NCBI RefSeq assembly: GCF_000698595.1
Contig: NZ_JFHC01000021.1
Span: forward strand, 1-64,000
DNA: 64,000 bases
Reading direction: 5' to 3'
Origin: Caballeronia glathei
GTDB lineage: Bacteria; Pseudomonadota; Gammaproteobacteria; Burkholderiales; Burkholderiaceae
Below, piece by piece: positions 1,433 through 32,373 of this stretch. The notes under the pieces were generated by a model. It did no database searches. It saw only the letters and a program-made list of their open reading frames with translations, and was not told where the DNA came from. Within the stretch, counting starts at the first letter, position 1. Every line of letters starts with the position of its first letter. A program made the position numbers and the translations under genes.

Positions 1433-2488
1433 TTACGACTTGATATGCGGCGCGAGCAGCGACAGATCCGCGGCGCCCAGCCGGTCGCTCGCGGTCTGCA
1501 CCTGATGCCAGTAGGGGTACAGGAGCGGCGGCGCGCTCACGCGGTCGAGCCGCTCGCGCTGGCCGGCGGTGAGCATTAGATTCGCCGCACCGAGGTTGTC
1601 GCGCAGCTGCGCTTCGTTGCGCCCGCCGATGATCACCGACGCCACCGCGGGCCGCCCGAGCGTCCACGCCAGTGCGACCTGCGCCGCCGACACCCCTTGC
1701 TCGCCCGCGACTTCCAGCAGCACGTCGACGATCGACCAGAGCCGCTCCTCGTCGCGGATCGGCGGCTCGGTCCAGCCGGCGAGCTGGCGCGTGCCTTCGG
1801 GCGTGGCGTCGCGGCGGTGCTTGCCGGACAGCAGGCCCCCCGCGAGCGGGCTCCAGACGAGCATGCCCAGGCCCTGGTCGAGCGAGATCGGCGCGAGTTC
1901 GTATTCGGCATCGCGCGCTTCGAGCGTGTAGTGGATCTGCTGGCTCACGAAGCGCGGCAGGCGGTCGCGCTCGCTCACGGCGAGCGCCTTCATCAGATGC
2001 CAGCCGGAGTAGTTCGAGCAGCCCACATAGCGGACCTTGCCCTGTCGCACGAGCGTGTCGAGCGCTTCCAGCGTTTCCTCGAGCGGCGTGATGCCGTCCC
2101 ATTCGTGCACCTGGTACAGGTCGATCACGTCGGTCTTCAGGCGGCGCAGGCTCGCCTCGCAGGCGCGGATCAGGTGATGCCGCGACAGGCCGCGGTCGTT
2201 CGGGCCGTCGCCCATCGGAAAGCGCGCCTTGCTCGCGATCAGCACGCCGCCCTTGCGCTTGCCGCCGAGCGCCTCGCCGACGATCTCCTCCGACGCCCCG
2301 TTCGAATAGACGTCCGCCGTATCGATCAGGTTGACGCCCGCGTCGATGCACATGTCGATCTGGCGGCGCGCCTCGTCGAGGCCCACTTCGCCGACGCTCG
2401 CGAACTTGCCCTTGCCGCCCATTGTCATCGTGCCCAGGGTGACAGTCGACACCTTGAGGCCCGAGCGGCCCAGCTGACGATATTCCAT
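1433..2488 (-). CDS. aldo/keto reductase
   Basis: NAD(P)H-dependent oxidoreductase of the aldo/keto reductase family, 351 residues, reducing aldehydes or ketones to alcohols in the cytoplasm. The catalytic tetrad is visible: Asp56 and Tyr61 in LIDTADVYSNG, Lys87 in IASKARF, His128 in LYQVHEWDG. The C-terminal cofactor segment (SVIIGGRNEAQLRDNL) is present. The start at MEYRQLGRSGLKVS is typical of the subfamily; an in-frame upstream extension has no homologous look and would enter the regulatory region. It is divergent from a LysR gene with a palindrome between them, so that regulator probably controls it. The substrate is unknown. Confidence 0.9.
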   Translation of the reverse strand: MEYRQLGRSGLKVSTVTLGTMTMGGKGKFASVGEVGLDEARRQIDMCIDAGVNLIDTADVYSNGASEEIVGEALGGKRKGGVLIASKARFPMGDGPNDRGLSRHHLIRACEASLRRLKTDVIDLYQVHEWDGITPLEETLEALDTLVRQGKVRYVGCSNYSGWHLMKALAVSERDRLPRFVSQQIHYTLEARDAEYELAPISLDQGLGMLVWSPLAGGLLSGKHRRDATPEGTRQLAGWTEPPIRDEERLWSIVDVLLEVAGEQGVSAAQVALAWTLGRPAVASVIIGGRNEAQLRDNLGAANLMLTAGQRERLDRVSAPPLLYPYWHQVQTASDRLGAADLSLLAPHIKS

Positions 2489-2656
2489 TTGAAGCAATCT
2501 CCCGTGAATGTTGCCGGATGTGGCTGAATGTGGCCGGACAGCAGCCGAAGACCGGCGGCGCGTTCCTCGCCGGCCGGCGCAGAAGCGAAGACCAGGACCC
2601 AGACCATCGACGATATCGGAAGTTGACTCATCGTTCCAACAGAAATATATGCTTAA

Positions 2657-2679
2657 ATTAATCATCAACTTTGATTAAT
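2657..2679. promoter_or_regulatory. LysR-type operator palindrome
   Basis: Perfect inverted repeat ATTAATCA, 7 bases, TGATTAAT, AT-rich in otherwise GC-rich DNA. It includes the T-N11-A arrangement typical of LysR-family sites. It lies 25 bases upstream of the chosen LysR start and about 170 bases upstream of the divergent reductase, fitting autoregulation plus control of the reductase. Confidence 0.7.
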
Positions 2680-2703
2680 CGACGGGACGCAACGGAGACG
2701 AGC

Positions 2704-3618
2704 GTGGACCTGAAGCAGCTGGAGCATTTCGTGGCGGTCGCCGAGGAGCGCCATTTCACGCGCGCGTCGCGGCGGCTGAATCTCGTGCAGTCGGGGCTGT
2801 CGGCGTCGATCCGCGCGCTGGAGGACGATCTCGGCGGCCCGCTTTTCATGCGCAGCACGCGGCGCGTCGCGCTCACGCCCGCGGGCGAGGTGCTGCTCGA
2901 CGAAGCGCGGCGCGTGCTGGCCGCCGCGCGCGACGCGCGCAACGCCGTGACGCAGGTCCACGGGCTCGCGCGCGGGCGGCTCAGCATCGGCGCGATTCAC
3001 AGCCTCGCGCCTTTCATCGATCTGCCCGCGTCGCTCGGTCAGTTCCGCGCTGCGTTCGGCGGAATCGACATCGAACTGACGCTCGACGGCTCGCGCGCAC
3101 TGATCGACGAGGTGCGCGAAGGGCGCATCGACATCGCGTTCACGCAGCCGTGCACGCCCGCACCCGACGATCTCGGCTTTCGCATGTTCGCGTGCGAAGG
3201 GATGGTCGTCGTCTGCGCGGCGCATCACCGGTTCGCGGGCGCGAGCGGGCTGAGGCTTGCCGATCTCGTCGACGAGACCTTCGCCGACCTGCGCCACGAA
3301 TGGACCGTGCGGCGGCTGGTCGATCAGAGCTTCGCGGCGCTCGGGCTGCAGCGGCGCACCGGCTTCGAGGCCAACGACATGCCGATGCTGCTCGAACTCG
3401 CCGCCCAGGGCCTCGCGATCGCGATGGTGCCCGAATCCGTCGCCGCCGCGCGGGTGCGCGAATCGCACGGCGCGCCCGTGGCGATGGCGACCCTGCGCGA
3501 AGCCGAGGAACCTTGCTGGGAGCTGGCGGCCGTCTTCAAGGGGCGGGACGGGGAGCCGCTCATTCCGGTCGCGCGCGCGTTCCTCGATTTGTTGAAGTTG
3601 CCCCAGGTTCCCGCCTGA
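2704..3618 (+). CDS. LysR family transcriptional regulator
   Basis: LysR-type regulator, 304 residues. The N-terminal winged helix-turn-helix reads MDLKQLEHFVAVAEERHFTR with the helix ASRRLNLVQSGLSASIRALE, followed by LGGPLFMRSTRRVALTPAG. The rest is a periplasmic-binding-like effector domain. I chose the GTG at 2704 because it gives the canonical LysR N-terminus and has GGAG about 6 bases upstream; a TTG at 2671 would add 11 residues and overlap the operator. It probably senses a small molecule and controls the divergent aldo/keto reductase. It sits where orbS lies in known ornibactin loci, but it is not a sigma factor. Confidence 0.9.
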   Translation: MDLKQLEHFVAVAEERHFTRASRRLNLVQSGLSASIRALEDDLGGPLFMRSTRRVALTPAGEVLLDEARRVLAAARDARNAVTQVHGLARGRLSIGAIHSLAPFIDLPASLGQFRAAFGGIDIELTLDGSRALIDEVREGRIDIAFTQPCTPAPDDLGFRMFACEGMVVVCAAHHRFAGASGLRLADLVDETFADLRHEWTVRRLVDQSFAALGLQRRTGFEANDMPMLLELAAQGLAIAMVPESVAAARVRESHGAPVAMATLREAEEPCWELAAVFKGRDGEPLIPVARAFLDLLKLPQVPA

Positions 3619-3773
3619 CGCGCCTCGCTTCGGTGCTTTTGCCTGAGGTGTGCGCGGCACCTCGGGCGGCTTGCGTGCGCCTTCCGGCGAGGCCCGGGAA
3701 GGCACGGCGCCCGCCGGAACCCGCCGCCCCGCCCGCCGGATACGACGCGTTTCGGGCGCGCGTTCGCCTCGGG

Positions 3774-3798
3774 TAAAAAAACGCGCGCTCCAAACGTC
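3774..3798 (+). promoter_or_regulatory. OrbS-type (ECF iron-starvation sigma) promoter of orbH
   Basis: TAAAAAAA starts at 3774 and CGTC at 3795, an offset of 21 bases. Published ornibactin promoters read by OrbS carry a TAAA-rich -35 and a CGTC -10. The same offset recurs at two more places in the locus. It is 94 bases upstream of the orbH start. Confidence 0.75.
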
Positions 3799-3892
3799 AA
3801 TCAGGTACATGCGGCGCCCGGAAAGACCCGTGCCGTCACCCGGGTATTCGTGCGCCGCTTCTCCTGACCGTATTCCGACCGAGCCAACGATC

Positions 3893-4150
3893 ATGACGCA
3901 TGCCCAGCATTCCCCCGCGGCCGCCGCCGGCGACGCGGACGACCTCGTCTACACCGTCGTCGTCAACGACGAAGAGCAGTACTCGATCTGGCCGACGTTC
4001 CGCGCCGTGCCCGCAGGCTGGCGCGAGGCCGGCGTGAAGGGCCCGAAAGGCGACTGCCTCGCCTACATCGAGACCGTGTGGACCGACATGCGCCCCGCGA
4101 GCCTGCGCCGTCACATGGGCGCAGCCGCGTCGAAAGCGCGCGCATCGTAA
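3893..4150 (+). CDS. orbH: MbtH-like protein of siderophore NRPS
   Basis: Small MbtH-family chaperone, 85 residues, that binds adenylation domains and is needed for their folding or activity. The family signature is complete: [36 protein letters not shown]. The Asp/Ala-rich N-terminus is a little longer than the 70-residue core. It opens the siderophore operon directly behind an OrbS-type promoter, matching orbH of Burkholderia ornibactin loci. The next gene starts 67 bases downstream, behind a strong hairpin. Confidence 0.93.
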
Positions 4151-4154
4151 TCCC

Positions 4155-4181
4155 GCGCGCCCGGCGAGGCGCCGGGCGCGC
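4155..4181 (+). terminator. strong hairpin between orbH and orbG
   Basis: Twelve-base perfect arms, GCGCGCCCGGCG and CGCCGGGCGCGC, flank a 3-base loop. It starts 4 bases after the orbH stop. No T-run follows directly. It may attenuate read-through or protect the short orbH message. Downstream, the orbG leader contains a duplicated TGCACGAGG (4190-4198 and 4202-4210), the second copy serving as the ribosome site. Confidence 0.55.
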
Positions 4182-4217
4182 GCCGCTTCTGCACGAGGAT
4201 TTGCACGAGGTTTTTGC

Positions 4218-5240
4218 ATGACCAATCTTTCCCTGCCGCAGCCGACGCTCGCCGACCTGAAGATCGAGCCCGGCCTGCCTACTGTCGTCTCGTCCGCGGC
4301 GGGCGCGGCGCTGTCGCTGAAAGAGGCGGCGCCGCTTTTGCGCGAGGTCGTCGGCGGCACGCTGGAGCGCGCGGGTGGCGTGCTCTTCACCGGCTTTCAC
4401 GTCGAGTCGATCGATGCGTTCCAGCGCTTTGCCGGCTCGTTCGGCGATCCGCTGATCGGCTACGAATTCGCATCGACGCCGCGCAGCCAGGTGGAGGGCG
4501 CCGTGTACACGTCGACGGAATACCCGCCACACCGCTCGATTCCGCTGCACAACGAGCAGTCGTACACGCGCGAGTGGCCGCTGCGCATCTGGTTTCATTG
4601 CGCGCTCGCCGCGCGCACGGGCGGCGCGACGCCGATCGCCGACAGCCGCGCCGTCTATCGCGCGCTCGATCCGGCGCTCGTTGCGCGCTTCGCGAAGCGC
4701 GAGCTGCGCTACGTGCGCAACTTCGGTCAGGGGCTCGACCTGCCGTGGCAGCAGGCGTTCGGCGCCAACGATCCGCGCGCCGTCGAGCGCATCTGCGCGG
4801 CGCGCGGCATCGCCTGCGAATGGCGCGACGGCGACGACGGCGAGCGCTTGCTGCGCACCGAGGAGCGCTGCCAGGCGGTGGCGCGCCATCCGCGCACGGG
4901 CGACATGGTGTGGTTCAACCAGGCGAATCTCTTTCACCTCTCCGCGCTCGATGACGACATGCAGGAGGCGCTCGTCGACGCAGTGGGGATCGAGAACGTG
5001 CCGCGCAACGTGTATTACGGCGACGGCGCGCCGCTCGAAGCGGACGCGCTCGCGGAGATCCGCGGCGTGCTGGACCAGCAGCGCATCGTGTTCCCGTGGG
5101 TGACCGGCGACGTGCTGATGCTCGACAACATGCTGACCGCGCATGCGCGCGATCCGTTCGAGGGGCCGCGCAAGGTCGTCGTCGCGATGGCGCAAAGCTA
5201 CAGCGAAGCGCGGGACGGCGAGCGGATGGCGAAACGATGA
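4218..5240 (+). CDS. orbG: Fe(II)/2-oxoglutarate dioxygenase, peptidyl-Asp beta-hydroxylase (OrbG/SyrP-like)
   Basis: TauD/SyrP-type non-haem iron dioxygenase, 340 residues, expected to beta-hydroxylate the aspartate carried on the second NRPS module, giving the hydroxy-Asp iron ligand of ornibactin. The metal site is visible as the His and Glu of PLHNEQSYTREWP and the distal His in NMLTAHARDPFEG, whose nearby Arg would bind 2-oxoglutarate. It sits between orbH and the uptake genes, as in ornibactin loci, and its stop overlaps the next start (ATGA). Substrate assignment rests on family and context. Confidence 0.88.
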   Translation: MTNLSLPQPTLADLKIEPGLPTVVSSAAGAALSLKEAAPLLREVVGGTLERAGGVLFTGFHVESIDAFQRFAGSFGDPLIGYEFASTPRSQVEGAVYTSTEYPPHRSIPLHNEQSYTREWPLRIWFHCALAARTGGATPIADSRAVYRALDPALVARFAKRELRYVRNFGQGLDLPWQQAFGANDPRAVERICAARGIACEWRDGDDGERLLRTEERCQAVARHPRTGDMVWFNQANLFHLSALDDDMQEALVDAVGIENVPRNVYYGDGAPLEADALAEIRGVLDQQRIVFPWVTGDVLMLDNMLTAHARDPFEGPRKVVVAMAQSYSEARDGERMAKR

Positions 5241-6112
5241 CGAAGACGGCAGGAGCGGCGCTTGCGGCCCGCTCGCTCACGGTCGGCTACCGCGATCACG
5301 TGGTGCTCGACGGACTCGACCTGACCATCGGAGCGGGGCGCATCACCGCGTTGTGCGGCCCGAACGGCTGCGGCAAGAGCACGCTCCTGCGCACGCTCGC
5401 GGGGCTGCAGCCGGCGCTTTCCGGGCAGGTGGAAGTGAACGGCGCGCCGCTCGGCTCGTTCCGGCGGCGCGCGCTCGCGCGCACGCTCACGATGCTCGCG
5501 CAGTTCAACCAGATCCCGGCGGGGCTGACCGTGCGCGAGCTGGTGGCGTACGGGCGCTACGCGTACGGCGGCTGGCTGCGCGGCCTGTCTCGCGCGGACC
5601 ATGCGGCGATCGACGAAGCGCTCGAAACGAGCGGACTCGCCGACGACGCCGCGCGCGACGTCGCGGCGCTGTCGGGCGGCGAGCGGCAGCGCGCGTGGAT
5701 CGCGATGGCGCTCGCGCAGCAGGCGCCGATCGTGCTGCTCGACGAACCCACCACCTATCTCGACATCCATCATCAGCTCGACATCCTGCGCGAGCTGCGG
5801 CGCCTGAACCGCGAGCGCGGGCTGACGATCGTCTGGGTGCTGCACGACCTCAACCAGGCGGCCGCCTACAGCGACGAGATCGTGCTGATGCGCGCGGGCC
5901 GCATCGTGGCGCACGGCGCGCCCGATGCGATGCTCGATCCGCGCCATCTGCACGAAGCGTTCGGCGTGCCGATGCTCAAGATCGCGCATCCGCAGACCGG
6001 CGCGCCGATGTGCGTGCCGGCCTACGAAGGCGCGTCCGCGATCGATGCCGCCCGTGGTCCGCACGGCGAGGCGCTGGCCGCGGCGCGCGCGAGCAAGGAC
6101 ATCGCCGCATGA
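5237..6112 (+). CDS. orbC: ferric-siderophore ABC transporter ATPase
   Basis: FepC/FhuC-type ATPase, 291 residues, that powers inner-membrane import of ferric siderophore. Walker A is GPNGCGKST (41-49), the signature is LSGGERQ (about 145), Walker B is IVLLDEP (about 165-171), and a switch His lies in WVLHDLNQAA. The ATG overlaps the orbG stop by four bases. The frame is open further upstream, but this start gives the normal family N-terminus. It pairs with the fused permease immediately downstream. Confidence 0.93.
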   Translation: MTKTAGAALAARSLTVGYRDHVVLDGLDLTIGAGRITALCGPNGCGKSTLLRTLAGLQPALSGQVEVNGAPLGSFRRRALARTLTMLAQFNQIPAGLTVRELVAYGRYAYGGWLRGLSRADHAAIDEALETSGLADDAARDVAALSGGERQRAWIAMALAQQAPIVLLDEPTTYLDIHHQLDILRELRRLNRERGLTIVWVLHDLNQAAAYSDEIVLMRAGRIVAHGAPDAMLDPRHLHEAFGVPMLKIAHPQTGAPMCVPAYEGASAIDAARGPHGEALAAARASKDIAA

Positions 6113-8223
6113 CGACGCTCGCCGCCAGAAAACGCCTGCGCCGCCCGCCGCCGCCCGCCGCAGCCGAGCGCCTGCGCGCTCCCGTGAAGAGCCGCGCCGG
6201 CGCGATCGGCGCGGCGCTCGTGGCGCTGATCGCGGCGGTGGCGGTGTTCCGGCTCGCGCCCGACCTGCGCGCCTGGCTCGCGGCCCCCGCGGGCAGCGAC
6301 GCCGCGCAGCTCGCAGGCATTCTTCTCTTCGACCTGAACGCGCCGCGCATCGCGGCGGCGCTCGTCGCGGGCGGCTGTCTCGCGGTTGCGGGCACGCTCT
6401 TTCAGGCGCTCACGCGCAATCCGCTCGCGTCGCCCGATCTGCTCGGCATCACGGGCGGCGCGCAGCTCGGGCTCCTCGCCGCGATGATCGTGCCGTCGCT
6501 CGTCGGCGCGGCCTCGGTGCCGCTGCTGTTCGTCTGCGGCCTTGCCGCCGCGGCGTGCGTAGCGGCGGCCGCGGGCGGCTGGCGCGCGACGCCGCTTCGG
6601 CTCGTGCTCGCGGGCAGCGTCTGCATGCTGCTGTTCTCCGCCATCACCACGCTGCTGCTCGCGCTCTTCGAGCAGACCGTCGTCGGCGCGTCGCTGTGGG
6701 CGAGCGGCAGCCTGTACCAGCCGGGCGCGGCGGGCCTGAGCATCGCGCTCGGCTGGCTCGTCGTGCCGCTCGCCGCGCTGCCGTTCGTGATCCGTCCGCT
6801 CGACCCGCTCGCGCTCGGCGACGACGCGGCGGCTGCCGCCGGCGTGCCCGTCGATGCGACGCGGCTCGCCGCAATGACGGTCGCGGTCGGCTTCGCGAGC
6901 GTGGCGGTGAGCGTCGCGGGACCGCTGTCGTATGTGGGGCTCATCGCGCCGAACCTGCTGCGCCAGGTGCGCGGCGCGCGGGCGTCGAAGCTCGGCGTGC
7001 TCGTGCCGCTTGCCGCGCTCGCGGGCGGCGCGCTCGTGCTCGTCACCGACAGCGCCGTGCTCGCGCTCGATCTCGACGCGACCATGTCGACGGGCGTCGC
7101 GATCGCCTTCGTCGGCACGCCGCTGATGCTCGCGATGATCCGCAGCGGCGCCGCATGGTCGGGCGTGCTGCACGCGGGCCCCGAGCGCGCGATGTCCGCG
7201 GCCGGCACGCACGTCGTGCGCGCGCTCGCCGCGCTGCCGTGGCTCGCGCTCGCCGCGATCCTGCTGGCGGCGGGCGCCGCGGTGCTCGCCGCCGGGGCGT
7301 CGTTCGGCCCGGTATCGCTCTCGCCCGGACGCTGGCTCGCCGCGCTGAACCACCGCGACGACGTCGCCCGCATGCTGCTAGAACTGCGCGTGCCGCGGCT
7401 CCTGTGCGCGCTGCTCGCGGGCGCGCTGCTCGCGGCGAGCGGCGTCCTGATGCAGAGCATCGTGCGCAATCCGCTCGCCGGGCCGGAAGTGCTCGGCGTC
7501 ACGCAGGGCGCGGGGCTGACGACGCTCGCCGTGCTGATGGTCGCACCGCTTGCCGGCCATTCGCTGCTCGCGGTCGCGGCGCTGGCCGGCGGCGGCGTGA
7601 CACTCGCGCTCACGCTGCTGCTCAACCGGCGGCACCAGTACGCGCCGCTCGCGGTGGCGCTGACGGGGATTGTCGTCGGGACGCTGTGGACGACGCTCGC
7701 GCAGTGGCTCATCACACAGCAAAGCGTGCAGCCGGCGCGCTTCGTCGTGTGGCTGATCGGCGGCACGTACGGGCGCAGCTGGGGCGAGGTGGCGATGCTG
7801 CTGCCGTGGTGCGCGCTCGCGCTGCCGGTGTTCGCGCTGCTCGCGCGGCCGCTCGATCTGCTCGCGCTCGGCGACGACCAGGCGGTCGCGCTCGGCCTGC
7901 CGATCGGCGTGCTGCGCCCGCTCGTGCTCACCGTGGCGACGCTCGCCGCGTGCGCGGCGGTGGCGGCGGTGGGGCCCGTCGGCTTCATCGGACTGATGGC
8001 GCCGCATCTTGCCGCGATGCTCGGCGCGCGCTCGCACGGCACGCGTCTCTGGCTTGCGGCGGCGCTCGGCGCGCTCGTCCTCGCCGCCGCCGATATCGCC
8101 GCGCGCACGCTGCTCGCGCCGCGCGAGATTCCGGCTGGCGTGCTCACAGCGCTGATCGGCGCGCCGTACCTGCTCGCGCTGCTGGTCATCCAGACGCGGC
8201 GGGAAAAGCGGGGCGCGCGATGA
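6109..8223 (+). CDS. orbD: ferric-siderophore ABC permease, fused double-length (FhuB-like)
   Basis: Inner-membrane permease of the FecCD family, 704 residues, about twice the usual single permease. Two tandem homologous halves are visible: each carries an RIxAAL or RLLCAL segment, then a QxLxRNPLAxPxxLG motif (FQALTRNPLASPDLLG and MQSIVRNPLAGPEVLG), and later GLxAPxLxR or GLMAPHLA. One chain therefore supplies both transmembrane subunits, as in FhuB. The start overlaps the orbC stop (ATGA), and the stop overlaps the next start in the same way, so translation is probably coupled. Confidence 0.92.
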   Translation: MTTLAARKRLRRPPPPAAAERLRAPVKSRAGAIGAALVALIAAVAVFRLAPDLRAWLAAPAGSDAAQLAGILLFDLNAPRIAAALVAGGCLAVAGTLFQALTRNPLASPDLLGITGGAQLGLLAAMIVPSLVGAASVPLLFVCGLAAAACVAAAAGGWRATPLRLVLAGSVCMLLFSAITTLLLALFEQTVVGASLWASGSLYQPGAAGLSIALGWLVVPLAALPFVIRPLDPLALGDDAAAAAGVPVDATRLAAMTVAVGFASVAVSVAGPLSYVGLIAPNLLRQVRGARASKLGVLVPLAALAGGALVLVTDSAVLALDLDATMSTGVAIAFVGTPLMLAMIRSGAAWSGVLHAGPERAMSAAGTHVVRALAALPWLALAAILLAAGAAVLAAGASFGPVSLSPGRWLAALNHRDDVARMLLELRVPRLLCALLAGALLAASGVLMQSIVRNPLAGPEVLGVTQGAGLTTLAVLMVAPLAGHSLLAVAALAGGGVTLALTLLLNRRHQYAPLAVALTGIVVGTLWTTLAQWLITQQSVQPARFVVWLIGGTYGRSWGEVAMLLPWCALALPVFALLARPLDLLALGDDQAVALGLPIGVLRPLVLTVATLAACAAVAAVGPVGFIGLMAPHLAAMLGARSHGTRLWLAAALGALVLAAADIAARTLLAPREIPAGVLTALIGAPYLLALLVIQTRREKRGAR

Positions 8224-9080
8224 CGGCGGTTCCGCCACATTCCGCGCCGCCGCAGGCTGGCGCCGCGACGCGCGGCGATCCGCTGCCCCGCGCGCGCTGC
8301 CTTGCCGAATTCGCACCCGGGCCGATCGCGCCGTATCTCGAACACGTGTGGCTCGGCGTCCCCGGCGACACGCCGGAAGAGGGCGTGCGCATCCCCTTGC
8401 TGACGCTCGGCGCGCATCGCGGCGAACTGCTCGATGCGATGGTCCAGCGCTACGGGGGCGACGCCGCGCTTCACGCGCGCGCGCTGCTGTCGCAGTGGAG
8501 CAAGTACTACTTCGGGCTCGCCGCGCCGGCGGGCGTCGTGGCGGCGTGCCTGCTGCGGCGTCCGCTCGACATGTCGCCCGGTCGCACGCAGCTCGTGCTG
8601 AGCGCGGGCATGCCTGCGAAGCTGTATTTCGCTGCCGATGCGCTCGGGCCGCCCGCCGACGATCCCGCGCACCGCTACGGCCCGCTCGTTGCGCATCTGG
8701 ATGCGGTGATCGGCATGCTCGCGGGCATGACGCGGATTGCGCCGCGCGTCCTGTGGAGCAATGTCGGCAACCTGCTCGACTATCTGCTCGAACAGTGTGC
8801 GCTCCTGCCCGGCGGGACGGACCGTCACGCGGCGCATGCCACGCACGACGATGCCGCATGGCTTTTCGGCCCCACGGGCGCCGGCGGCGAGCCCAATCCG
8901 CTGCGCATGCCGGTGCGCGAGACGACGCCGCGCTCGGCGCTGCTGCCGAGCCCGTTTCGCGCGCGCCGCGTGTGCTGCGTGCGCTATGAAATTCCAGGAG
9001 AGACGCAACTGTGCGCAAGCTGCCCCCTACTGCTGACGATGCCCGACGAGGCGCTCGCCCTGCAGGAAGCCATCCGTTGA
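8220..9080 (+). CDS. orbF: FhuF-like siderophore ferric reductase
   Basis: Predicted [2Fe-2S] ferric-siderophore reductase, 286 residues, releasing iron from the imported complex in the cytoplasm. The FhuF-type C-terminal cysteine cluster is present: adjacent Cys252 and Cys253, then Cys265 and Cys268 (CC-x11-CxxC), one residue longer in the gap than the CC-x10-CxxC usually quoted. The N-terminal part is family-typical and without other motifs. It is translationally coupled on both sides. The gene letter follows function; the order of orbB and orbF should be compared with a reference locus. Confidence 0.85.
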
Positions 9081-10141
9081 AGCACACGATCCACACGATG
9101 CGGGCGGGCGCCGCGGCGGCGCTCGCGTGGGCGGCGCTCGCGGGTGGCGGGGCGGCAGCCGCGCAGCCACTTGCCGCCGATGCCGCCGCGGCACCGGTTC
9201 CTCTCGCCACGGCACCGGAAGGCGCGCCCTATTGCGGGCCGCTCGCCGGCAATCCGACCGTCTCGCAGTTCAGCAAGACGATGCCCGTGAAGCCGAAGCG
9301 CATCGTCGTGCTCGAATTCATGTTCGCCGAAGACCTGGCCGCGCTCGACGTGACGCCGGCCGGTCTCGTCGATGCCGCCTACTATGCGGGCTGGATCGGC
9401 TACGACAGCGCGCGGTTCACCGGCGTGCCCGAAGTCGGCACCCGGCAGGAGCCGAGCCTGGAGGCGATCGCGTCGGCGAGGCCCGATCTCATCATCGGCG
9501 TGGGGTTCAGGCACGCGCCGATCTTTGCCGCGCTCGAGCGCATTGCGCCGACGGTGCTCTTTCAGTTCAGCCCGAACGTGGCACAGGAGGGCGTGCCGCA
9601 GACACAGCTCGACTGGACGCGCACGATCTTTCGCACGATAGGCTGTCTCACCGGGCGCGAGGCCGAGGCGCGCGCGGTCGAGGCGAAGCTCGACGCGGGC
9701 CTTGCCCGCGACGCGCAGCGTCTCGCGCAGGCGGGAAGAAGCGGCGCGCAGTTCGCGCTGCTGCAGGAACTGGGGCTGCCCGACCGCTACTGGGCGTACA
9801 CCGGCAACAGCACGGCGGCGGGCGTCGCGCGCGCGCTCGGCGTCGATCTGTGGCCGGGCACGCCGACGCGCGAAGGCACGGTCTACGTCACCTCGGCGGA
9901 CATGCTGAAGAAGCCGGATCTCGCGGTGCTGTTCGTCACGGCGACGGGCGCGGACGTCGCGCTCGACACGAAGCTCGATTCCCCCGTCTGGCGGTTCGTG
10001 CCGGCGAAGCGGGCAGGGCGCGTGACGCTCGTCGAGCCGAATATATGGGGCTTCGGCGGGCCGATGTCGGCGCTGCGCCTCGCGGACATGATCACCGACA
10101 AGCTGATCGCGTTGCCGCCAGCGCCGGTGGCGGCGCGCTAG
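9077..10141 (+). CDS. orbB: ferric-siderophore periplasmic binding protein
   Basis: FhuD/FepB-type solute-binding protein, 354 residues, delivering ferric siderophore to the permease. A signal peptide is visible ([11 protein letters not shown], then an Ala-rich core to AAAAQPLA). The mature part has [20 protein letters not shown] and [17 protein letters not shown], hallmarks of class III binding proteins. I chose the TTG at 9077: it overlaps the reductase stop (TTGA), has AGGA about 9 bases upstream and supplies a basic N-region. ATG 9098 is the alternative but has no ribosome site. The gene ends before a strong hairpin shared with convergent orbE. Confidence 0.87.
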
Positions 10142-10189
10142 ACGGCTGGTGGTTCGCCGTCGCCGGATGCGGCGGTCAGTTGCATCGCC

Positions 10190-10231
10190 ATGGAAAACGG
10201 CCGCTTGCGAAAGCAAGCGGCCGTTTTCCAT
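10190..10231. terminator. bidirectional terminator between orbB and orbE
   Basis: Perfect 19-bp inverted repeat (left arm starting ATGGAAAACGG, right arm ending CCGTTTTCCAT) with a GAAA tetraloop. The arm ends contain A4 and T4 tracts, so it can work as an intrinsic terminator in both directions. A second inverted repeat, GCCAAACGC and GCGTTTGGC with a 6-base spacer, follows at 10251-10274. Confidence 0.8.
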
Positions 10232-10299
10232 TCGACGCCAAAGGCCAAAGGCCAAACGCGAGGCGGCGTTTGGCGTTTGGCAAGCAGCGAGACGGCAAG

Positions 10300-10338
10300 C
10301 ACCGAAACGGCGAAACACCGAAACGGCGAAACACCGAG
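10300..10338. repeat. 16-bp tandem repeat, 2.4 copies
   Basis: CACCGAAACGGCGAAA occurs twice perfectly (10300-10315 and 10316-10331), then a partial copy. It lies in the spacer between the convergent orbB and orbE genes, next to the terminator, and looks like replication-slippage DNA with no coding role. Confidence 0.8.
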
Positions 10339-10375
10339 ACTACGAACGGCGCACCAAACCCCGCCGCCCAGCCCC

Positions 10376-12136
10376 TCAACCCGCCGTGCCGTTCGCCGCT
10401 TCGGGCGCGATCGCGCGCGCCGCGCGCGCGCCGCGCGTCTCGCTGACGATGCTTCCGTTGTCGAGCTTGAGCACCCGGTCGGCGAGCGGAAAATATCGGT
10501 CGTCGTGCGTGATCACCACCACCGTCTTGCCGCGCCCGCGCAGCTCCGGCAGCAACTGCTCGTAGAACACCGCCCTGAACGCCGGGTCCTGATCGGCGGC
10601 CCATTCGTCGAACAGGTAGAACGGCCGGTCTTCCAGATACGCCACCACGAGCGCGAGGCGCTTGCGCTGCCCGGTTGAGAGCGCGCGCGTCGAGAACGCG
10701 CCGTCCACCACCTGCACCTTGTGATCGAGCGCGAGCTTGGCGACGAGCGCATTCGCGCGCGCGTCGGCCTGGGCGCGCGACGGATCGTCCGGATCGACGA
10801 TGCCGAGCAGCGCATCGAACAGATGGAAATCGTTGAAGACCGCCGTGAAGCGCTCGCGGTACGCGGCGCGCTCGTGCGCGCCCACCGGCCGGCCGTCCAC
10901 CTCGATCACGCCGTCTTCCGGCTCGTAGAGACCCGTGAGCACCTTGGCGAGCGTGGTCTTGCCGCTGCCGTTGCCGCCGACGATGAATACCATCTCACCC
11001 GGCCTGAACGTGAGATCGACGGGGCCGATGCGGAACATGCGCTCGTCGCGCTCGTGAAAGTACGAATGCGTGACGCCGCGCAGCGTGAGCGTCTCGAACG
11101 GCGCGTGCGCCGCGTTTTCCGAAGGCGGCGGCGCCTCGGCCAGACCGCCGAACTCGGCCATCACCTTCTCGATGCGATCGAGCGACACGCGCGCCGCGTT
11201 CACCGTGGGCAGGTTGTTCAGGAGGCCGTCGAGCGGCACCAGCATGAAGAGGAACACGATCACGTAGCCGGCCGCGACGGGCGCGTCCGCGCGCACGCCG
11301 AGCGACGGCCAGAACGCCGCCGCGCCGAGAAACGCATAGAACAGGAAGATGATCCAGCCCACCCCGACCGCATACGCGCTGAACGCGCGGCGCCGGTGGT
11401 CGCGCACTTCGCCGATCGCGGCGCCCAGCTGCCCGTCGACGAACTGCCGCGCCCGCGCCTGATGCAGTTTCAGTTCCTTTGCGCCCGCGAAGAGCGCGCC
11501 GAGATAGCCGAAGAGCTTGTCCTGCGACTTGCCCGCCGCTTCGAGCGAGGCGATCGCGCGCCTGTCGCCCGTGTGGTAGCCGAGCGAGCCCGTCACGATC
11601 GCGGCCAGCGCGAGCAGGCAGACCGGCCACGAGAGCCATGCCAGATAACCCAGGCAGCCGAACACGATCGAGCCGTGCATCACGATGTTGGGCAGCGCGA
11701 AGAACAGCATCGACACATTGGTGGCGTCGTCCGTCAGCACCGACTGCACCGGTGCCGCGCCGATACGCTCGACATCGCGCAATTCGGCCCTGGCGACGCG
11801 CCGCGCGACGTGCTCGCGCAGCTGCGCCATCGTGTCCTGCGAAAGGCGCGCGAACAGCACGCCCGACAGGACGCGCGTCGCGAGCGCGACGACGGCGCAC
11901 AGCGCAAAGCGCCACGCGAGCGAACTGTCGGCGAGAGACGATTGCGAGAGCGCGCGGTTGAGCGTCGCGACGAGCATCACGCTCGCGATGCCGTTCAGCA
12001 CGCACGCGACGAGCGCGATCGAGAACGCGCCGCGCGAGCGCTTGAGGAGCGCGAGGATCAGGCGCGCGGCGGGCTTGGGCGGCGCGGCGGCGCCATGGGA
12101 GGACGGGGCGTCGGAACGCTCGTTGGCAACGGTCAT
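10376..12136 (-). CDS. orbE: PvdE/SyrD-type ABC exporter for siderophore or precursor
   Basis: Cyclic-peptide-exporter family ABC protein, 586 residues, with an N-terminal six-helix membrane domain (about 25-320) fused to an ATPase (about 345-570). Walker A is GGNGSGKTT, the signature is the degenerate LSTGQRKR, Walker B is FYLFDEWAADQDP and the switch is VITHDDRYF, the set seen in PvdE. It is likely to move the siderophore or its acylated precursor across the inner membrane. It is divergent from orbI, and each gene has its own OrbS-type promoter in the shared 248-base spacer. Confidence 0.92.
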   Translation of the reverse strand: MTVANERSDAPSSHGAAAPPKPAARLILALLKRSRGAFSIALVACVLNGIASVMLVATLNRALSQSSLADSSLAWRFALCAVVALATRVLSGVLFARLSQDTMAQLREHVARRVARAELRDVERIGAAPVQSVLTDDATNVSMLFFALPNIVMHGSIVFGCLGYLAWLSWPVCLLALAAIVTGSLGYHTGDRRAIASLEAAGKSQDKLFGYLGALFAGAKELKLHQARARQFVDGQLGAAIGEVRDHRRRAFSAYAVGVGWIIFLFYAFLGAAAFWPSLGVRADAPVAAGYVIVFLFMLVPLDGLLNNLPTVNAARVSLDRIEKVMAEFGGLAEAPPPSENAAHAPFETLTLRGVTHSYFHERDERMFRIGPVDLTFRPGEMVFIVGGNGSGKTTLAKVLTGLYEPEDGVIEVDGRPVGAHERAAYRERFTAVFNDFHLFDALLGIVDPDDPSRAQADARANALVAKLALDHKVQVVDGAFSTRALSTGQRKRLALVVAYLEDRPFYLFDEWAADQDPAFRAVFYEQLLPELRGRGKTVVVITHDDRYFPLADRVLKLDNGSIVSETRGARAARAIAPEAANGTAG

Positions 12137-12212
12137 CGGCGAGAAGTCACTGGAAGAAGGTCACTGGAAGAAGGAAAACGCGCGGGCGCGGAATGCGCCT
12201 CTTGTCCTGATA

Positions 12213-12237
12213 GACGGTTGGGGCCGCGAAATATTTA
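12213..12237 (-). promoter_or_regulatory. OrbS-type promoter of orbE
   Basis: On the minus strand TAAATA starts at 12237 and CGTC at 12216, an offset of 21 bases, identical to the promoters of orbH and orbI. It is 77 bases upstream of the orbE start. The -35 has one mismatch to TAAAAA. Confidence 0.7.
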
Positions 12238-12288
12238 GCGCTTCATGGATGACCCGGCGAAGGCGCGAAAGATAAATCAGCAAAGGAG

Positions 12289-12313
12289 TAAAAATCCGCG
12301 CGTGCGGTTCGTC
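12289..12313 (+). promoter_or_regulatory. OrbS-type promoter of orbI
   Basis: TAAAAA starts at 12289 and CGTC at 12310, again 21 bases apart. It is 72 bases upstream of the orbI start and about 50 bases from the divergent orbE promoter. It should drive the biosynthetic operon orbI-orbJ-orbK-pvdA and perhaps the genes beyond. Confidence 0.75.
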
Positions 12314-12384
12314 ATCCCAAGGAAGCCGCAATTCCTGCGGCCCCGCGAAAAGGCCCGGGCGGCCACACGAAGGACCTCACGCTC

Positions 12385-22089
<9,705 letters not shown>

Positions 22090-22099
22090 GGATCGACGG

Positions 22100-27179
<5,080 letters not shown>

Positions 27180-27190
<11 letters not shown>

Positions 27191-27623: not shown

Positions 27624-28994
27624 ATGCAGAGAGAAACCGTATTCGATCTGATCGGCGTCGGCTTCGGACCGTCGAATCTTTCACTTGCCGTGCGGCTGGC
27701 CGAAGAGGCGGGCGCGGCGGATCTGGCGCATTGCTTCATCGAGCGCCAGCCGGAGTTCGGCTGGCATCGCGGCATGCTCCTCGACGACTGCCGGATGCAG
27801 ATTTCCTTCCTGAAGGATCTCGTCACGCAGCGCGATCCGAAGAGCCGCTTCACGTTCATCAACTACCTGTTCGAGCGCGGGCGTCTCAACGAGTTCGTCA
27901 ACCTGAAGAGCTTTTATCCGACGCGCGTCGAGTTTCACGACTACCTGCGCTGGGTGGCCGATGCCTTCGACAAGCGCGTGCATTACGGTGAAACCGTCAC
28001 CAGCATCGAGCCCGTGCACGCTGCGGGCAAGGGCGGCGCGATCGGCTCGCTGCGCGTGTTCTCGCGCGACGGCGAGGGCCGCGAGTGGCAGCGCGTGACG
28101 CGCGCCCTGTCGGTGGGCGTCGGCGGGACGGCGCAGGTGCCCGAAGCCTTTGCCGCGCTCGGGCCGCACAACGTGGTTCATTCGTCGTCGTATCTGACCT
28201 CGATCGAGCGTGTCGTCGGCAAGCCGGAGGAGGCGAAAAAGCGCGTGGCCGTGATCGGCGCGGGGCAGAGCGCGGCGGAAGTGTTCATGGACCTGTCGCG
28301 GCGCTTCGCGCATGTCGACGCGAGCCTCGTGATCCGCTCGGGCGCGCTCAAGCCCGCCGACGACAGCCCGTTCGTCAACGAGATCTTCAACCCCGCATAC
28401 ACCGACGTGGTCTACGCGCAGCCGAAGGACGCGCGGCGCACGCTGATAGAAGGCTTTCGCGACACCAACTACGCGGTGGTGGACCGTCCGCTCATCGAGC
28501 AGATCTACGAAATGCTGTACCTGCAGACCGTATCGGACGAGCCGCGCCACCGGCTGCTTGCGAACACCGCGATCGAAGCGGCCATGCGCACCGCGAACGG
28601 CCAGATCGAACTCACGATGCGCGACCGCCTCACCGGCCATGCGCGCGCCGAACGCTTCGACGCGCTCGTGCTCGCGACCGGCTATCGCCGCGACACGCAT
28701 ATCGCGCTGCTCGAAGGGCTCGCACCGCATCTGGGCGATGCGCTCGCCGAAGGCAACGTAGCGCGCGACTACCGGCTCGCGACGCCCGGGCACTTCAAGC
28801 CGCGCATCTATCTGCAAGGCTGCTGCGAAGACAGCCACGGCCTCTCCGACACGCTGCTGTCCGTCCTGGCGCTGCGCTCGGACGAGATCGCCGCGTCGCT
28901 TCTGGAGCATGCAACAGGCGACGAGACCATCAGCCGGAATCCGGCTCGACAAAAAAACGGGGTGAGCGGCGGCCGCATGGCCTTCGCTCTTTGA
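27624..28994 (+). CDS. pvdA: L-ornithine N5-monooxygenase
   Basis: Flavin-dependent N-hydroxylating monooxygenase, 456 residues, converting ornithine to N5-hydroxyornithine, the source of both hydroxamate ligands. The FAD site is GVGFGPSNL (11-19), the NADPH site is VIGAGQSAAEV (about 209-219), and the ATGY motif is LVLATGYRRD (about 350-359). It lies three bases after orbK, behind orbI and orbJ. This is the PvdA/SidA family; length and motifs are normal. Confidence 0.95.
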   Translation: MQRETVFDLIGVGFGPSNLSLAVRLAEEAGAADLAHCFIERQPEFGWHRGMLLDDCRMQISFLKDLVTQRDPKSRFTFINYLFERGRLNEFVNLKSFYPTRVEFHDYLRWVADAFDKRVHYGETVTSIEPVHAAGKGGAIGSLRVFSRDGEGREWQRVTRALSVGVGGTAQVPEAFAALGPHNVVHSSSYLTSIERVVGKPEEAKKRVAVIGAGQSAAEVFMDLSRRFAHVDASLVIRSGALKPADDSPFVNEIFNPAYTDVVYAQPKDARRTLIEGFRDTNYAVVDRPLIEQIYEMLYLQTVSDEPRHRLLANTAIEAAMRTANGQIELTMRDRLTGHARAERFDALVLATGYRRDTHIALLEGLAPHLGDALAEGNVARDYRLATPGHFKPRIYLQGCCEDSHGLSDTLLSVLALRSDEIAASLLEHATGDETISRNPARQKNGVSGGRMAFAL

Positions 28995-29040
28995 CAGGAG
29001 CGCGGCCGGTCGGCCGCATTGCAATTTGGAGCAACGGAAA

Positions 29041-31314
29041 ATGGAGTGGGCAACAGGCACGCGTCGGAATGCGATCGCAGCCGCGGCAGGCATGGCGTTC
29101 TACGCGGCGGCAGCCAGCCAGGCGCACGCGCAACAGGTTTCGCAGGAAGGGGCGCGAGGGGCCCCGGCGCCTGCGCAAGTGGCGCAGGCGGCAGAGCCGG
29201 CAGGCGGTACGCAGCAGCAGAACAACAACACGCAACCGGGCGCGGCGCCAGGCAACACGCTGCCTGCGATCACGATCAATGCGCAAGCCGATGCCGGCGA
29301 CACGGTTGGTCTCGTCGCGCGGCGCAGCTCGACCGGCACGAAGACCGACACGCCGATCGACGAGATCCCGCAGACGATCAACGTCGTGACCGCCGCGCAG
29401 ATCGAGGAGACGGGCGCGACGAGCGTCAACGAGGCGCTGCGCTACATCCCGGGCTTCTCGTCGTATGGCGCGGACGTCCGCTCCGACTGGTATTCGGCAT
29501 TGCGCGGCTTCACGCCGACGGTGTTCGTCGACGGGCTGCAGGTGCCCAACACGCTCAACCTGTCGAGCTGGCGCGTCGATCCGTACATGATCGACAGCAT
29601 CACCGTGCTGCGCGGCCCGACCTCGGTGCTGTACGGCCAGGGCGACCCGGGCGCGATCGTCGACATCCAGAGCAAGCTCGCCAACGGCGAGCGCATCCGC
29701 GAAGTGGGCCTCCAGATCGGCGACTATGCGCGCAAGCAGTTCGAGTTCGATATCGGCGACAGGATCGACAAGGACGGCACGCTGTCGTACCGCGTGGTCG
29801 GCGTCGCGCGTGACGGCAATTCGCTCACCGGCCCGCACGCGGAGCAGCGCGTCGCGATCGCGCCGTCGATCCGGTGGCAGCCGAACGCGAGCACGTCGCT
29901 CACGGTCGATGCGACCTATCTGCAGGACTGGGGCGACGCGTCGAACAACTTCCTGCCGGCGGAAGGCACGGTGCTGCCCAATCCGAACGGCAAGATCTCG
30001 GAGAACCTCTATACCGGCGACCCGACCTACTCGTACTACCGCAAGAAGCAGTGGTCGCTCGGCTATCAGTTCGAACACAAGGCGAACCCGATCTGGACGT
30101 TCCGCCAGAACACGCGCTGGATGCACGTGTCGCTTGACAACGGCGCGGTCTGGGGCGCGGGCCTCGATCCGAGCGATCCGACGCAGCAGACGCTCGCGCG
30201 CTATGCGGGCCTCTTCCAGCCGAACTACAGCCGCTTCGACATCGACAACCAGGCGATCGCGCGCTTCGGCACCGGGCCGCTCGAGCACACGGTGCTGCTC
30301 GGCTTCGAGTACAACCGCCAGAATTCGACCGACAGCGAGTGGCTCGCGCAGGGCCCGAGCCTGAACATGTACAACCCGGTGTACACGCCGGTGTCGACGG
30401 CGATCTTCAGCGGCCCCGATTCGTTCGGCCAGACCAACACGAAGACGACGCTCGATTCGTTCGGCGTCTACGCGCAGGACCAGATCAAGTGGCAGCGCTG
30501 GGTGCTGACGCTCGGCGGCCGCGAGGACTGGAGCAACACGAAGCAGGACAACATCGCCGCGGGCACGCAGCTGAAGCAGGACGACAGCGCGTTCTCGGGC
30601 CGCGTCGGGATGACGTATCTGGGCGACTTCGGGCTCTCGCCGTACATCAGCTACTCGACCTCGTTCAATCCGATCGTCGGCGCGAACATGGCGGGCGGCG
30701 GGCTGCCTGCACCGACCAAGGGGCGTCAGATCGAAGCGGGCCTGCGCTGGCAGCCGCCCGGCAAGAACATGATGCTGAACGCGGCGATCTACCAGATCCA
30801 CCAGAAGAACGTCCTCACGCCCGACCCGAACGATCCGACCGGCACCTTCTTCGTGCAGACGGGCGAGGTGCGCTCGCAGGGCATCGAGCTTTCCGCAGTC
30901 GGCAAGGTCACGCGCGATCTGTCGGTGATCGCGGCGTACGTGTATCAGGACGTGAAGAACATCAAGGCGAACGATGCCTCGCTCGGCAAGTGGCCGGTCT
31001 CCATTCCGCTGCCGCGCCAGATGGCGTCGCTCTGGGCCGACTACACGTGGCACGCGGGCACGCTCGAAGGCTTCGGCATCGGCGCGGGCATCCGCTACCA
31101 GAGCGGCCTGGCGGGCGCCTACGACAACTCGCTCTACGTGCCGAGCTACACCGTATATGACGCTGCCATTCACTACACCATCCCCCACTGGAGATTCGCC
31201 GTGAACGCGCAGAACATCTTCAACCGCACGTTCGTGAGCGGCTGCCAGTCGTCCTCGGCGTGCTTCTACGGCAATCCGCGCACGGTGATCGCGACCGCGA
31301 AGTACAACTGGTAA
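29041..31314 (+). CDS. orbA: TonB-dependent ferric-siderophore outer-membrane receptor
   Basis: FhuE/FpvA-like outer-membrane receptor, 757 residues, that imports ferric ornibactin-type siderophore. A signal peptide ends near AHA30. A Gln/Asn/Pro-rich stretch precedes LPAITINAQ, a possible TonB box. The plug domain (about 95-220) has TPIDEIPQTINVVTAAQIEETG and LRGPTSVLYGQGDPGAIVDI, and the beta-barrel ends KYNW. There is no N-terminal signalling domain of the FpvA/FecA kind, so it should not act through an anti-sigma factor. ATG 29041 is preferred over TTG 29026 because GGAG lies 9 bases upstream of it. Confidence 0.93.
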   Translation: MEWATGTRRNAIAAAAGMAFYAAAASQAHAQQVSQEGARGAPAPAQVAQAAEPAGGTQQQNNNTQPGAAPGNTLPAITINAQADAGDTVGLVARRSSTGTKTDTPIDEIPQTINVVTAAQIEETGATSVNEALRYIPGFSSYGADVRSDWYSALRGFTPTVFVDGLQVPNTLNLSSWRVDPYMIDSITVLRGPTSVLYGQGDPGAIVDIQSKLANGERIREVGLQIGDYARKQFEFDIGDRIDKDGTLSYRVVGVARDGNSLTGPHAEQRVAIAPSIRWQPNASTSLTVDATYLQDWGDASNNFLPAEGTVLPNPNGKISENLYTGDPTYSYYRKKQWSLGYQFEHKANPIWTFRQNTRWMHVSLDNGAVWGAGLDPSDPTQQTLARYAGLFQPNYSRFDIDNQAIARFGTGPLEHTVLLGFEYNRQNSTDSEWLAQGPSLNMYNPVYTPVSTAIFSGPDSFGQTNTKTTLDSFGVYAQDQIKWQRWVLTLGGREDWSNTKQDNIAAGTQLKQDDSAFSGRVGMTYLGDFGLSPYISYSTSFNPIVGANMAGGGLPAPTKGRQIEAGLRWQPPGKNMMLNAAIYQIHQKNVLTPDPNDPTGTFFVQTGEVRSQGIELSAVGKVTRDLSVIAAYVYQDVKNIKANDASLGKWPVSIPLPRQMASLWADYTWHAGTLEGFGIGAGIRYQSGLAGAYDNSLYVPSYTVYDAAIHYTIPHWRFAVNAQNIFNRTFVSGCQSSSACFYGNPRTVIATAKYNW

Positions 31315-31404: not shown

Positions 31405-32256
31405 ATGTCGAAGAAAAAACTCGTCTACATCCTGTCACTGAGAAACGCCGCGGCCGACCGGGCCGGACAGGACATCGAATACAAGGGCGGACTGCGATAC
31501 ATGAAATCGCCGCTCGAATTTCTGGCCGAGCGGCTCAACGAGACCGGTCTCGGCGAACTCTATTCGCTCGAAGGCGTCATCTACGACGACGACGAGGGGT
31601 CTGCCGCCGACCGCGAGAAGCTGAAGCATTACGGCTTCTCGTGCCAGCCGGGCAGGCAATGGATCCATCCGGCGGATCTGACCGTGCAGGGCAGGCCGCT
31701 GACGAGCCTGCTGCACGCGATTCCTTCGACCTACCGGCGCCTGCCGAGGACCGGGGCGAACGCGCCCGCGCGCGCCGCGCAAAAGAGCGAGTTCGAGCGG
31801 CGCCTGCTCGATCGGCTGATCGCGCTCGACGCCGATTTCGTGGTGCTCGACGGGCTGCTCGTCATCCTCGACGAACTGGTGCTCCCGGGCGCGCCCTATC
31901 ACCGGCGCATCGCGAACATTCATCCGGGCGTGACGCGCCTCGGCTCGCGCTACGAGCGCCGCGGCGCCTACGCGACGCTCGATGCGCTTCACGGCGCGCG
32001 CGGCGAGAAGGTCGTCGACTGGACGACGGGCAAGACGCGGCCCGTGCCGCCCGTGAACAAGACGGGCGCGTCGTTTCACTACGTCGACAACGGCATCGAT
32101 TCCGGCGAAGTGATTTTCGACGTGCTCGAAACGGACATCGACGTGAACGACACGATCCTCGAACTGCGCTGGAACAATTTTCACAAGAGCCTTTTTCCCG
32201 CGCTGGAAGGCGGCCTCGCGACGATGGCGGACAGCTTTGCGAAAGAGGCGATCTGA
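31405..32256 (+). CDS. pvdF: N5-hydroxyornithine formyltransferase
   Basis: PvdF-type transformylase, 283 residues, transferring a formyl group from N10-formyltetrahydrofolate to N5-hydroxyornithine for the fourth residue. The formyltransferase core is visible: FVVLDGLLVILDE, then NIHPGVTRLGSRYERRGAYATLDAL with the catalytic Asn-x-His, and later YVDNGIDSGEVIF containing the conserved Asp. Its presence distinguishes ornibactin and malleobactin loci from plain hydroxamate clusters. The ribosome site is weak. Confidence 0.92.
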   Translation: MSKKKLVYILSLRNAAADRAGQDIEYKGGLRYMKSPLEFLAERLNETGLGELYSLEGVIYDDDEGSAADREKLKHYGFSCQPGRQWIHPADLTVQGRPLTSLLHAIPSTYRRLPRTGANAPARAAQKSEFERRLLDRLIALDADFVVLDGLLVILDELVLPGAPYHRRIANIHPGVTRLGSRYERRGAYATLDALHGARGEKVVDWTTGKTRPVPPVNKTGASFHYVDNGIDSGEVIFDVLETDIDVNDTILELRWNNFHKSLFPALEGGLATMADSFAKEAI

Positions 32257-32373
32257 GCATGCCGACCGCGATGCGAACGCCTCCTTGCGCCCGGCCATGC
32301 GGCGCGGCGCACGGGCAACGCCCGGGCGTTGCCGCCGCGCAACCCAACCCCGTCAAACGCCGGAGACATGACG

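Follow-up and report, generated by a model that had tools for sequence, protein, structure and literature searches.

An ornibactin-type siderophore locus in Caballeronia glathei lacks its customary orbS gene and is probably read in trans by a diverged OrbS-family sigma factor

The first 64,000 nucleotides of contig NZ_JFHC01000021.1 of Caballeronia glathei (C21:1-64000 of genome G000, hereafter the window) hold what appears to be an ornibactin-type siderophore cluster, in which the main genes are all open reading frames while the customary first gene, the extracytoplasmic function (ECF) sigma factor gene orbS, is missing. The genome is a draft of 8.64 Mb in 356 contigs, with a completeness score of 100%. 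On the plus strand the locus opens with orbH (3893..4150), whose 85-residue translation we take to be MbtH-like and whose tblastn homologues adjoin orbS in relatives, and with orbG (4218..5240, 340 residues), presumably dioxygenase-like by its name in the literature, which is 83-89% identical to OrbG of 18 congeners. Transport genes follow on the same strand: orbC (5237..6112, an ABC transporter ATPase) and orbB (9077..10141, a periplasmic binding protein) are open frames with homologues in relatives and carry names that we presume from their position, and between them lie orbD (6109..8223, an FhuB-type permease, NF007869 at 1247 bits) and orbF (8220..9080, an FhuF-like ferric reductase, PF06276 in a scan of the longer frame 5925-9080). 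The minus strand carries orbE (10376..12136), encoding a cyclic-peptide export ABC transporter (TIGR01194, 457 bits).

Downstream on the plus strand, domain scans reveal two nonribosomal peptide synthetase (NRPS) genes, orbI (12385..22089), with three condensation, three adenylation and three carrier domains, and orbJ (22028..27190, start codon approximate), with two condensation domains, one adenylation domain and one carrier domain. They are followed by genes for a pvdA-type L-ornithine 5-monooxygenase (27624..28994, PF13434), the TonB-dependent siderophore receptor OrbA (29026..31314, from family-model scans), a pvdF-type formyltransferase (31405..32256, PF00551) and an orbL-type acetyltransferase (32329..33339, PF13523), all on the plus strand. 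The checked gene set, which covered OrbH, OrbG, transport, the OrbE exporter, the OrbI/OrbJ NRPSs, the ornithine monooxygenase and the receptor, is present. It is of the same kind as the Burkholderia cenocepacia ornibactin locus described in excerpts of PMC9023288, PMC8908255 and PMC4786211, including the orbE exporter and the orbI/orbJ NRPSs, and ornibactin is the product foreseen for Caballeronia members in PMC9023288.

The first-pass annotation of this DNA had placed three OrbS-type promoters upstream of orbH, orbE and orbI, and all three are borne out. PorbH (TAAAAAAACGCGCGCTCCAAACGTC, 3774..3798, plus strand), PorbE (TAAATATTTCGCGGCCCCAACCGTC, 12213..12237, minus strand) and PorbI (TAAAAATCCGCGCGTGCGGTTCGTC, 12289..12313, plus strand) share a TAAA-to-CGTC offset of 21 (TAAA-N17-CGTC), and the pattern TAAAWA-N13..17-CGTC matches exactly three times in the window against 0.09 expected, a count reached by none of 100 shuffles. 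With a 25-column scoring matrix trained on 29 relatives' sites, PorbH (32.3 bits), PorbI (27.2 bits) and PorbE (25.6 bits) are the three top sites of the window, the next best scoring 14.9 bits. TAAA-N17-CGTC lies directly 5' of orbH in all 17 relatives' loci scanned, and the divergent orbE/orbI promoter pair is kept in six of the seven loci that reach that far; the seventh (L111, from G030) is without blastn homology to orbE at that place. The three sites are of the TAAA...CGTC kind printed for PorbH, PorbE and PorbI of B. cenocepacia in the excerpted papers.

In the genome-wide motif scan that the first-pass annotation had suggested, the looser pattern TAAAWN-N14..16-CGTC has 83 matches, fewer than the 135 of a reversed control. 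The motif by itself is thus not rare in the genome, and what counts is its exact spacing, the composition of its spacer and its position. When the 34 correctly spaced matches were scored, only one (C1:177018-177042, 33.4 bits) exceeded all three orb sites. We rejected it as a fourth regulon member, as it forms one arm of a terminator-like hairpin, read from the sequence, behind a gene that we take to be gdhA, and no such site above 9.8 bits was found in the loci of 29 relatives, out of 56 other genomes with that region. As this hairpin resembles an OrbS promoter more closely than the genuine sites do, motif-only regulon predictions call for caution. Because the sole higher-scoring site is a hairpin arm not found in those 29 loci, the predicted regulon probably comprises the three orb operons, within a genome-wide pattern of TAAAW (TAAAC or TAAAG sites, present at PorbE of some relatives, fall outside it). 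The OrbS regulon reported in the excerpted text of PMC8908255 likewise consists of three orb operons.

What this locus does not contain is a sigma factor gene. A Sigma70_r2 search over the whole genome returned 24 matches of all kinds, none of which falls in the window, in agreement with the initial claim that the 64 kb hold no sigma gene; two lie beyond it on C21, at 86.7 and 105.3 kb, and the former proved on scanning not to be OrbS-like. The genes now found 5' of orbH are, as first annotated, a LysR-family regulator (2671..3618, plus strand; PF00126 and PF03466) and an aldo/keto reductase (1433..2668, minus strand; PF00248). From the LysR stop to the PorbH -35 there are 155 bp (3619..3773), at the place where relatives usually carry orbS, and no orbS relic was detectable there: local and anchored alignments, with relatives' orbS 3' ends and the tail of an orbS gene on another contig of this genome (C18, see below) as queries, were no better than dinucleotide shuffles. 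Two relic leads, a blastn piece starting at 3747 against L108 and some shuffle-beating alignments spanning PorbH, failed once the part 5' of the -35 was tested alone. In many Caballeronia (L108, L109, L031, L036 and others), the TAA stop codon of orbS doubles as the opening three bases of the PorbH -35; in G057 and in Paraburkholderia sp. C35 and Burkholderia sp. Ac-20365, PorbH lies inside the orbS reading frame, so that gene end and promoter are fused. The flank 5' of orbS varies between subclades, so a different neighbour is ordinary, but an absent orbS is not.

The separation of orbS from its locus is exceptional among close kin. OrbS was found in 20 of 58 genomes of the genus, and in all 19 of the other orbS-bearing congeners orbH and orbG matches lie directly 3' of orbS (the orbG match of G015 being short). 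In the family, 101 of 398 genomes had an OrbG match, reduced to 86 at an OrbG identity of at least 70%, and the gap between orbS and orbG is 338-668 bp in 78 of these; seven OrbS candidates were scored per genome, so absences are weaker here than in the genus search. The eight exceptions are C. glathei itself, G179 and six genomes with a lone orbG. G179 was rejected as a second split case, since its orbS is cut short by a contig end and its PorbH borders on foreign coding sequence, probably through assembly, as were the six with OrbG and no OrbS (G174, G241, G265, G297, G341 and G357), in which no other orb gene was found. These lone orbG genes (L208-L213) are 80-86% identical to OrbG of the window, and G357 has two weak transporter matches. 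The 15 genomes dropped at the identity threshold form groups g3 and g10, with OrbG at 59-61% and more distant loci. Among the titles and opening lines of abstracts found in the literature, there was no description of an ornibactin locus without an adjacent orbS.

The surveys also brought up other unusual arrangements. In L105 (G273:C148), orbC lies directly 3' of orbS, and orbH and orbG are missing from their customary place. In L146 (Burkholderia sp. 4M9327F10, 9174-12047), a pair of a phosphopantetheinyl transferase gene and orbS is followed by a gene that looks transporter-like in its sequence, with no orbH before the contig end, and it is possible that this is a second unlinked orbS. Five further loci (L148-L152, from G368, G361, G205, G349 and G076) have an OrbS-family sigma and no orbG at 70% identity, and these are possibly orphan sigmas remaining after locus loss. 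A TonB receptor gene lies near the sigma in the three that were checked (L148, as a weak orbA match, and L149 and L150, by Pfam), accompanied in L149 and L150 by a collagen-like gene; in L148, orbS is directly followed by a PorbH-like remnant whose spacer is three bases too short.

A search of the C. glathei genome for OrbS, as advised in the first-pass annotation and with the candidate among the Sigma70_r2 matches as query, yielded a single OrbS-family gene (one match at E<=1e-15), at C18:104135-104815 on the minus strand; no orbS lies just outside the window in the conserved arrangement. The encoded ECF sigma of 226 residues scores 283.1 bits against PRK07037/NF005448 (cut-off 190; next family 68.5), a model that we take to cover both OrbS and PvdS. 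The gene is complete, stop codon included, and lies about 6.3 kb from one contig end and about 104 kb from the other. It sits 121 bp 3' of a 4'-phosphopantetheinyl transferase gene (PF01648), and its neighbours are this gene and a DUF480 gene, with no MbtH-like gene (orbH); in excerpts of PMC8908255, such sigma genes are 'often adjacent' to an MbtH-like gene, which describes their usual context and does not define the protein.

A predicted Fur box (GTAAACGCGAATCATTCTC) lies at -62 from the ATG, as one does 5' of the sigma gene of B. cenocepacia, agreeing at 18 of 19 bases with the orbS box printed in the excerpted PMC4786211 and at 13 of 19 with the Escherichia coli consensus. Exactly these 19 bases lie 5' of orbS at 20 of the 32 other loci that were examined (12 of the 19 congeners) and are printed for phmS in the excerpted PMC10991261, so this box does not tell lineages apart. 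The predicted DNA-reading part of the C18 sigma is conserved: its helix-turn-helix (NVSQTLVHFMVRDA) is shared without change by 44 of 48 relatives, it departs at only three of the 76 columns invariant in those 48, and region 4.2 is conserved among the relatives compared. The C-terminal tail differs, as it carries three cysteines (C198, C201 and C214, the third displaced) and after HCADCL is unlike other OrbS tails, whereas B. cenocepacia OrbS has four cysteines (C196, C199, C203 and C209), described in the excerpted PMC9023288 as part of an iron sensor. The related iron-starvation sigma PvdS of Pseudomonas, which recognises very similar -35 sequences (PMC9023288, excerpted), is held by the anti-sigma FpvR (PMC8908255, excerpted); unlike there, no anti-sigma gene was recognised among the scanned neighbours of the C18 sigma gene.

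No link between C18 and C21 was found. C18 ends at the start of a gene that we assume to be ilvC-like; no such motif appears in the initial 3000 bases of the window. Direct joining of the right end of C18 to the left end of C21, which would place orbS about 10 kb from orbH, was rejected on this ground; a short intervening contig is conceivable, so proximity is rejected for direct joining only. An ilvC gene with an unusual start was also seen at C79:1948-2439, and the genome may carry two ilvC copies.

Comparison with relatives indicates that the sigma and the locus differ in their ancestry. The C18 OrbS is 59-67% identical to congeners' OrbS over matched stretches, against 83-89% for OrbG, and while OrbG of the window falls inside Caballeronia clade A (support 81/84), the C18 OrbS clusters with those of Burkholderia sp. 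Ac-20365, Paraburkholderia sp. C35, G384, G155 and G169 (99/98), outside a 36-row clade that holds all congeners (99/96). In approximately unbiased (AU) tests, its placement as sister of G013/G053 was rejected (p=0.00024), and its placement in clade A gave p=0.028, or 0.031 with long rows removed. It also shares residues with the outside group, for example with L077 (PESAL.TRD.LRHAFDALAQLP and DAAKHC). Judged on sequence, the C18 sigma belongs to an OrbS lineage other than that of its congeners, which keep theirs in cis, as do the five genomes with which it clusters, where orbS is followed by orbH and orbG; it is probably not simply the native gene relocated. With a long end branch (0.47 in one tree, 0.88 in the other), its tree placement counts as support and not as proof.

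The surroundings of the C18 sigma gene, read from gene order, are a rearranged spot. The C18 flanks, close together here, are separated by about 41-52 kb of a single contig in G001, G013, G051 and G053, and the sigma, transferase and DUF480 genes, from elsewhere, sit between them; none of the sequence 5' of orbS in seven relatives has a match in the C18 stretch. A related transferase gene adjoins orbS on its 5' side in Paraburkholderia sp. C35, Burkholderia sp. Ac-20365 and 4M9327F10, and precedes it by 1.3 kb in G136 and by 2.9 kb in G193. The nearest relative of the C18 transferase among those compared is that of Caballeronia sp. M1242 (59%, 97/96), which has no adjacent orbS, and no OrbS-type promoter precedes the C18 transferase gene, unlike in C35 and Ac-20365. 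A transferase-orbS pair transferred as one module finds no support in the transferase tree.

We consider it probable, at roughly 70%, that the native orbS was lost and that the locus is now read in trans by the diverged, Fur-controlled OrbS encoded on C18. Since this sigma is of a different OrbS lineage, the history was probably one of loss and substitution by a diverged copy, not of excision and relocation of the native gene. Under low iron, relief of Fur repression would allow the C18 sigma to be made, and the sigma would then direct RNA polymerase to PorbH, PorbE and PorbI, by analogy with the Fur-OrbS control model of B. cenocepacia (excerpts of PMC9023288 and PMC8908255). With a Fur box in front of the C18 gene itself, iron would exert its control as it does there despite the position of the sigma gene away from orbH, and it is most likely this distant sigma that drives the three orb promoters. 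Several of our observations weigh against such a reading. OrbG falls inside clade A with support of only 81/84, the AU values for OrbS in that clade are borderline, and OrbS stands on a long end branch. The transferase lacks both an OrbS-type promoter and a tree that would tie it to orbS, and separation as such is not unique, as the best OrbS-family match lies more than 2 kb from orbG in all 15 of the distant g3/g10 genomes (eight with a distance of 6.7-6.9 kb, four with 40-41 kb and three with the two genes on different contigs). Homology of the window to the relatives' locus begins at the PorbH -35, and homology of the sigma breaks in its tail, both of which a misjoin would also produce.

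The first-pass annotation had suggested that the sigma was relocated, and the part of this that stands is the absence of orbS from its usual place, with a sigma elsewhere. A translocation of the native gene to C18, with a break at its 3' end and fast evolution thereafter, would make the tree position a long-branch effect. It would account for the single orbS in the genome, for a Fur box shared with most congeners, for the long branch in both trees with AU values near the threshold, and for C18 flanks that form a mosaic, the pieces of which are far from one another or spread over other contigs in four relatives. We nevertheless regard it as unlikely, given that a core changed at so few invariant columns speaks against runaway evolution, that the residues common to the C18 sigma and the outside group would be left over, that the sister placement to G013/G053 is rejected and that no upstream-flank piece came along. 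An assembly artefact, in which orbH is truly joined to the C18 sigma gene or to an orbS absent from the assembly and C21 is misjoined at about 3770, is distinctly improbable: the draft state of the genome, the two breaks in homology and the apparent precedent of G179 speak for it, but the C18 sigma gene is complete with long contig sequence on both sides, no second orbS was found in a genome scored 100% complete, and the lineage of the sigma differs from that of the locus.

The other proposal of the first-pass annotation, that a different iron-starvation sigma took over, found no backing among the candidates scanned. The genome does encode several ECF sigmas, and the 24 Sigma70_r2 matches left 19 alternative-sigma candidates once OrbS and the proteins that we label RpoD-, RpoS-, RpoH- and FliA-like were excluded. 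Nine of the 19 were scanned, however, and up to 25 listed families at E 1e-12 include neither a FecI nor an OrbS model; with an OrbS-family sigma under a Fur box available in the same genome, control by a non-OrbS sigma seems close to negligible. That the locus is unexpressed and decaying after sigma loss we regard as very unlikely, even though orbS is missing in cis and some genomes of group g20 show the reverse remnant, an orbS without a locus, as the main genes are open, the promoters are intact at the correct spacing and a conserved OrbS is present in the genome.

Across the family, an OrbS-type sigma usually accompanies its siderophore locus in cis, as in the 78 of 86 genomes described above. 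Loss of the native gene and control in trans could reflect a natural sigma swap, an idea that we hold at slightly under even odds, in which the locus would be run from elsewhere, perhaps from another replicon, by an OrbS of another lineage with a rebuilt iron-sensing tail; the regulon would then owe its survival solely to a conserved promoter recognition that OrbS lineages have in common. If true, a functional locus with a distant, diverged sigma would mean that regulator and regulon are separable and swappable, that annotation based on clusters may overlook the regulator, and that C. glathei offers a natural test of how far OrbS, and chiefly its iron-sensing tail, may change.

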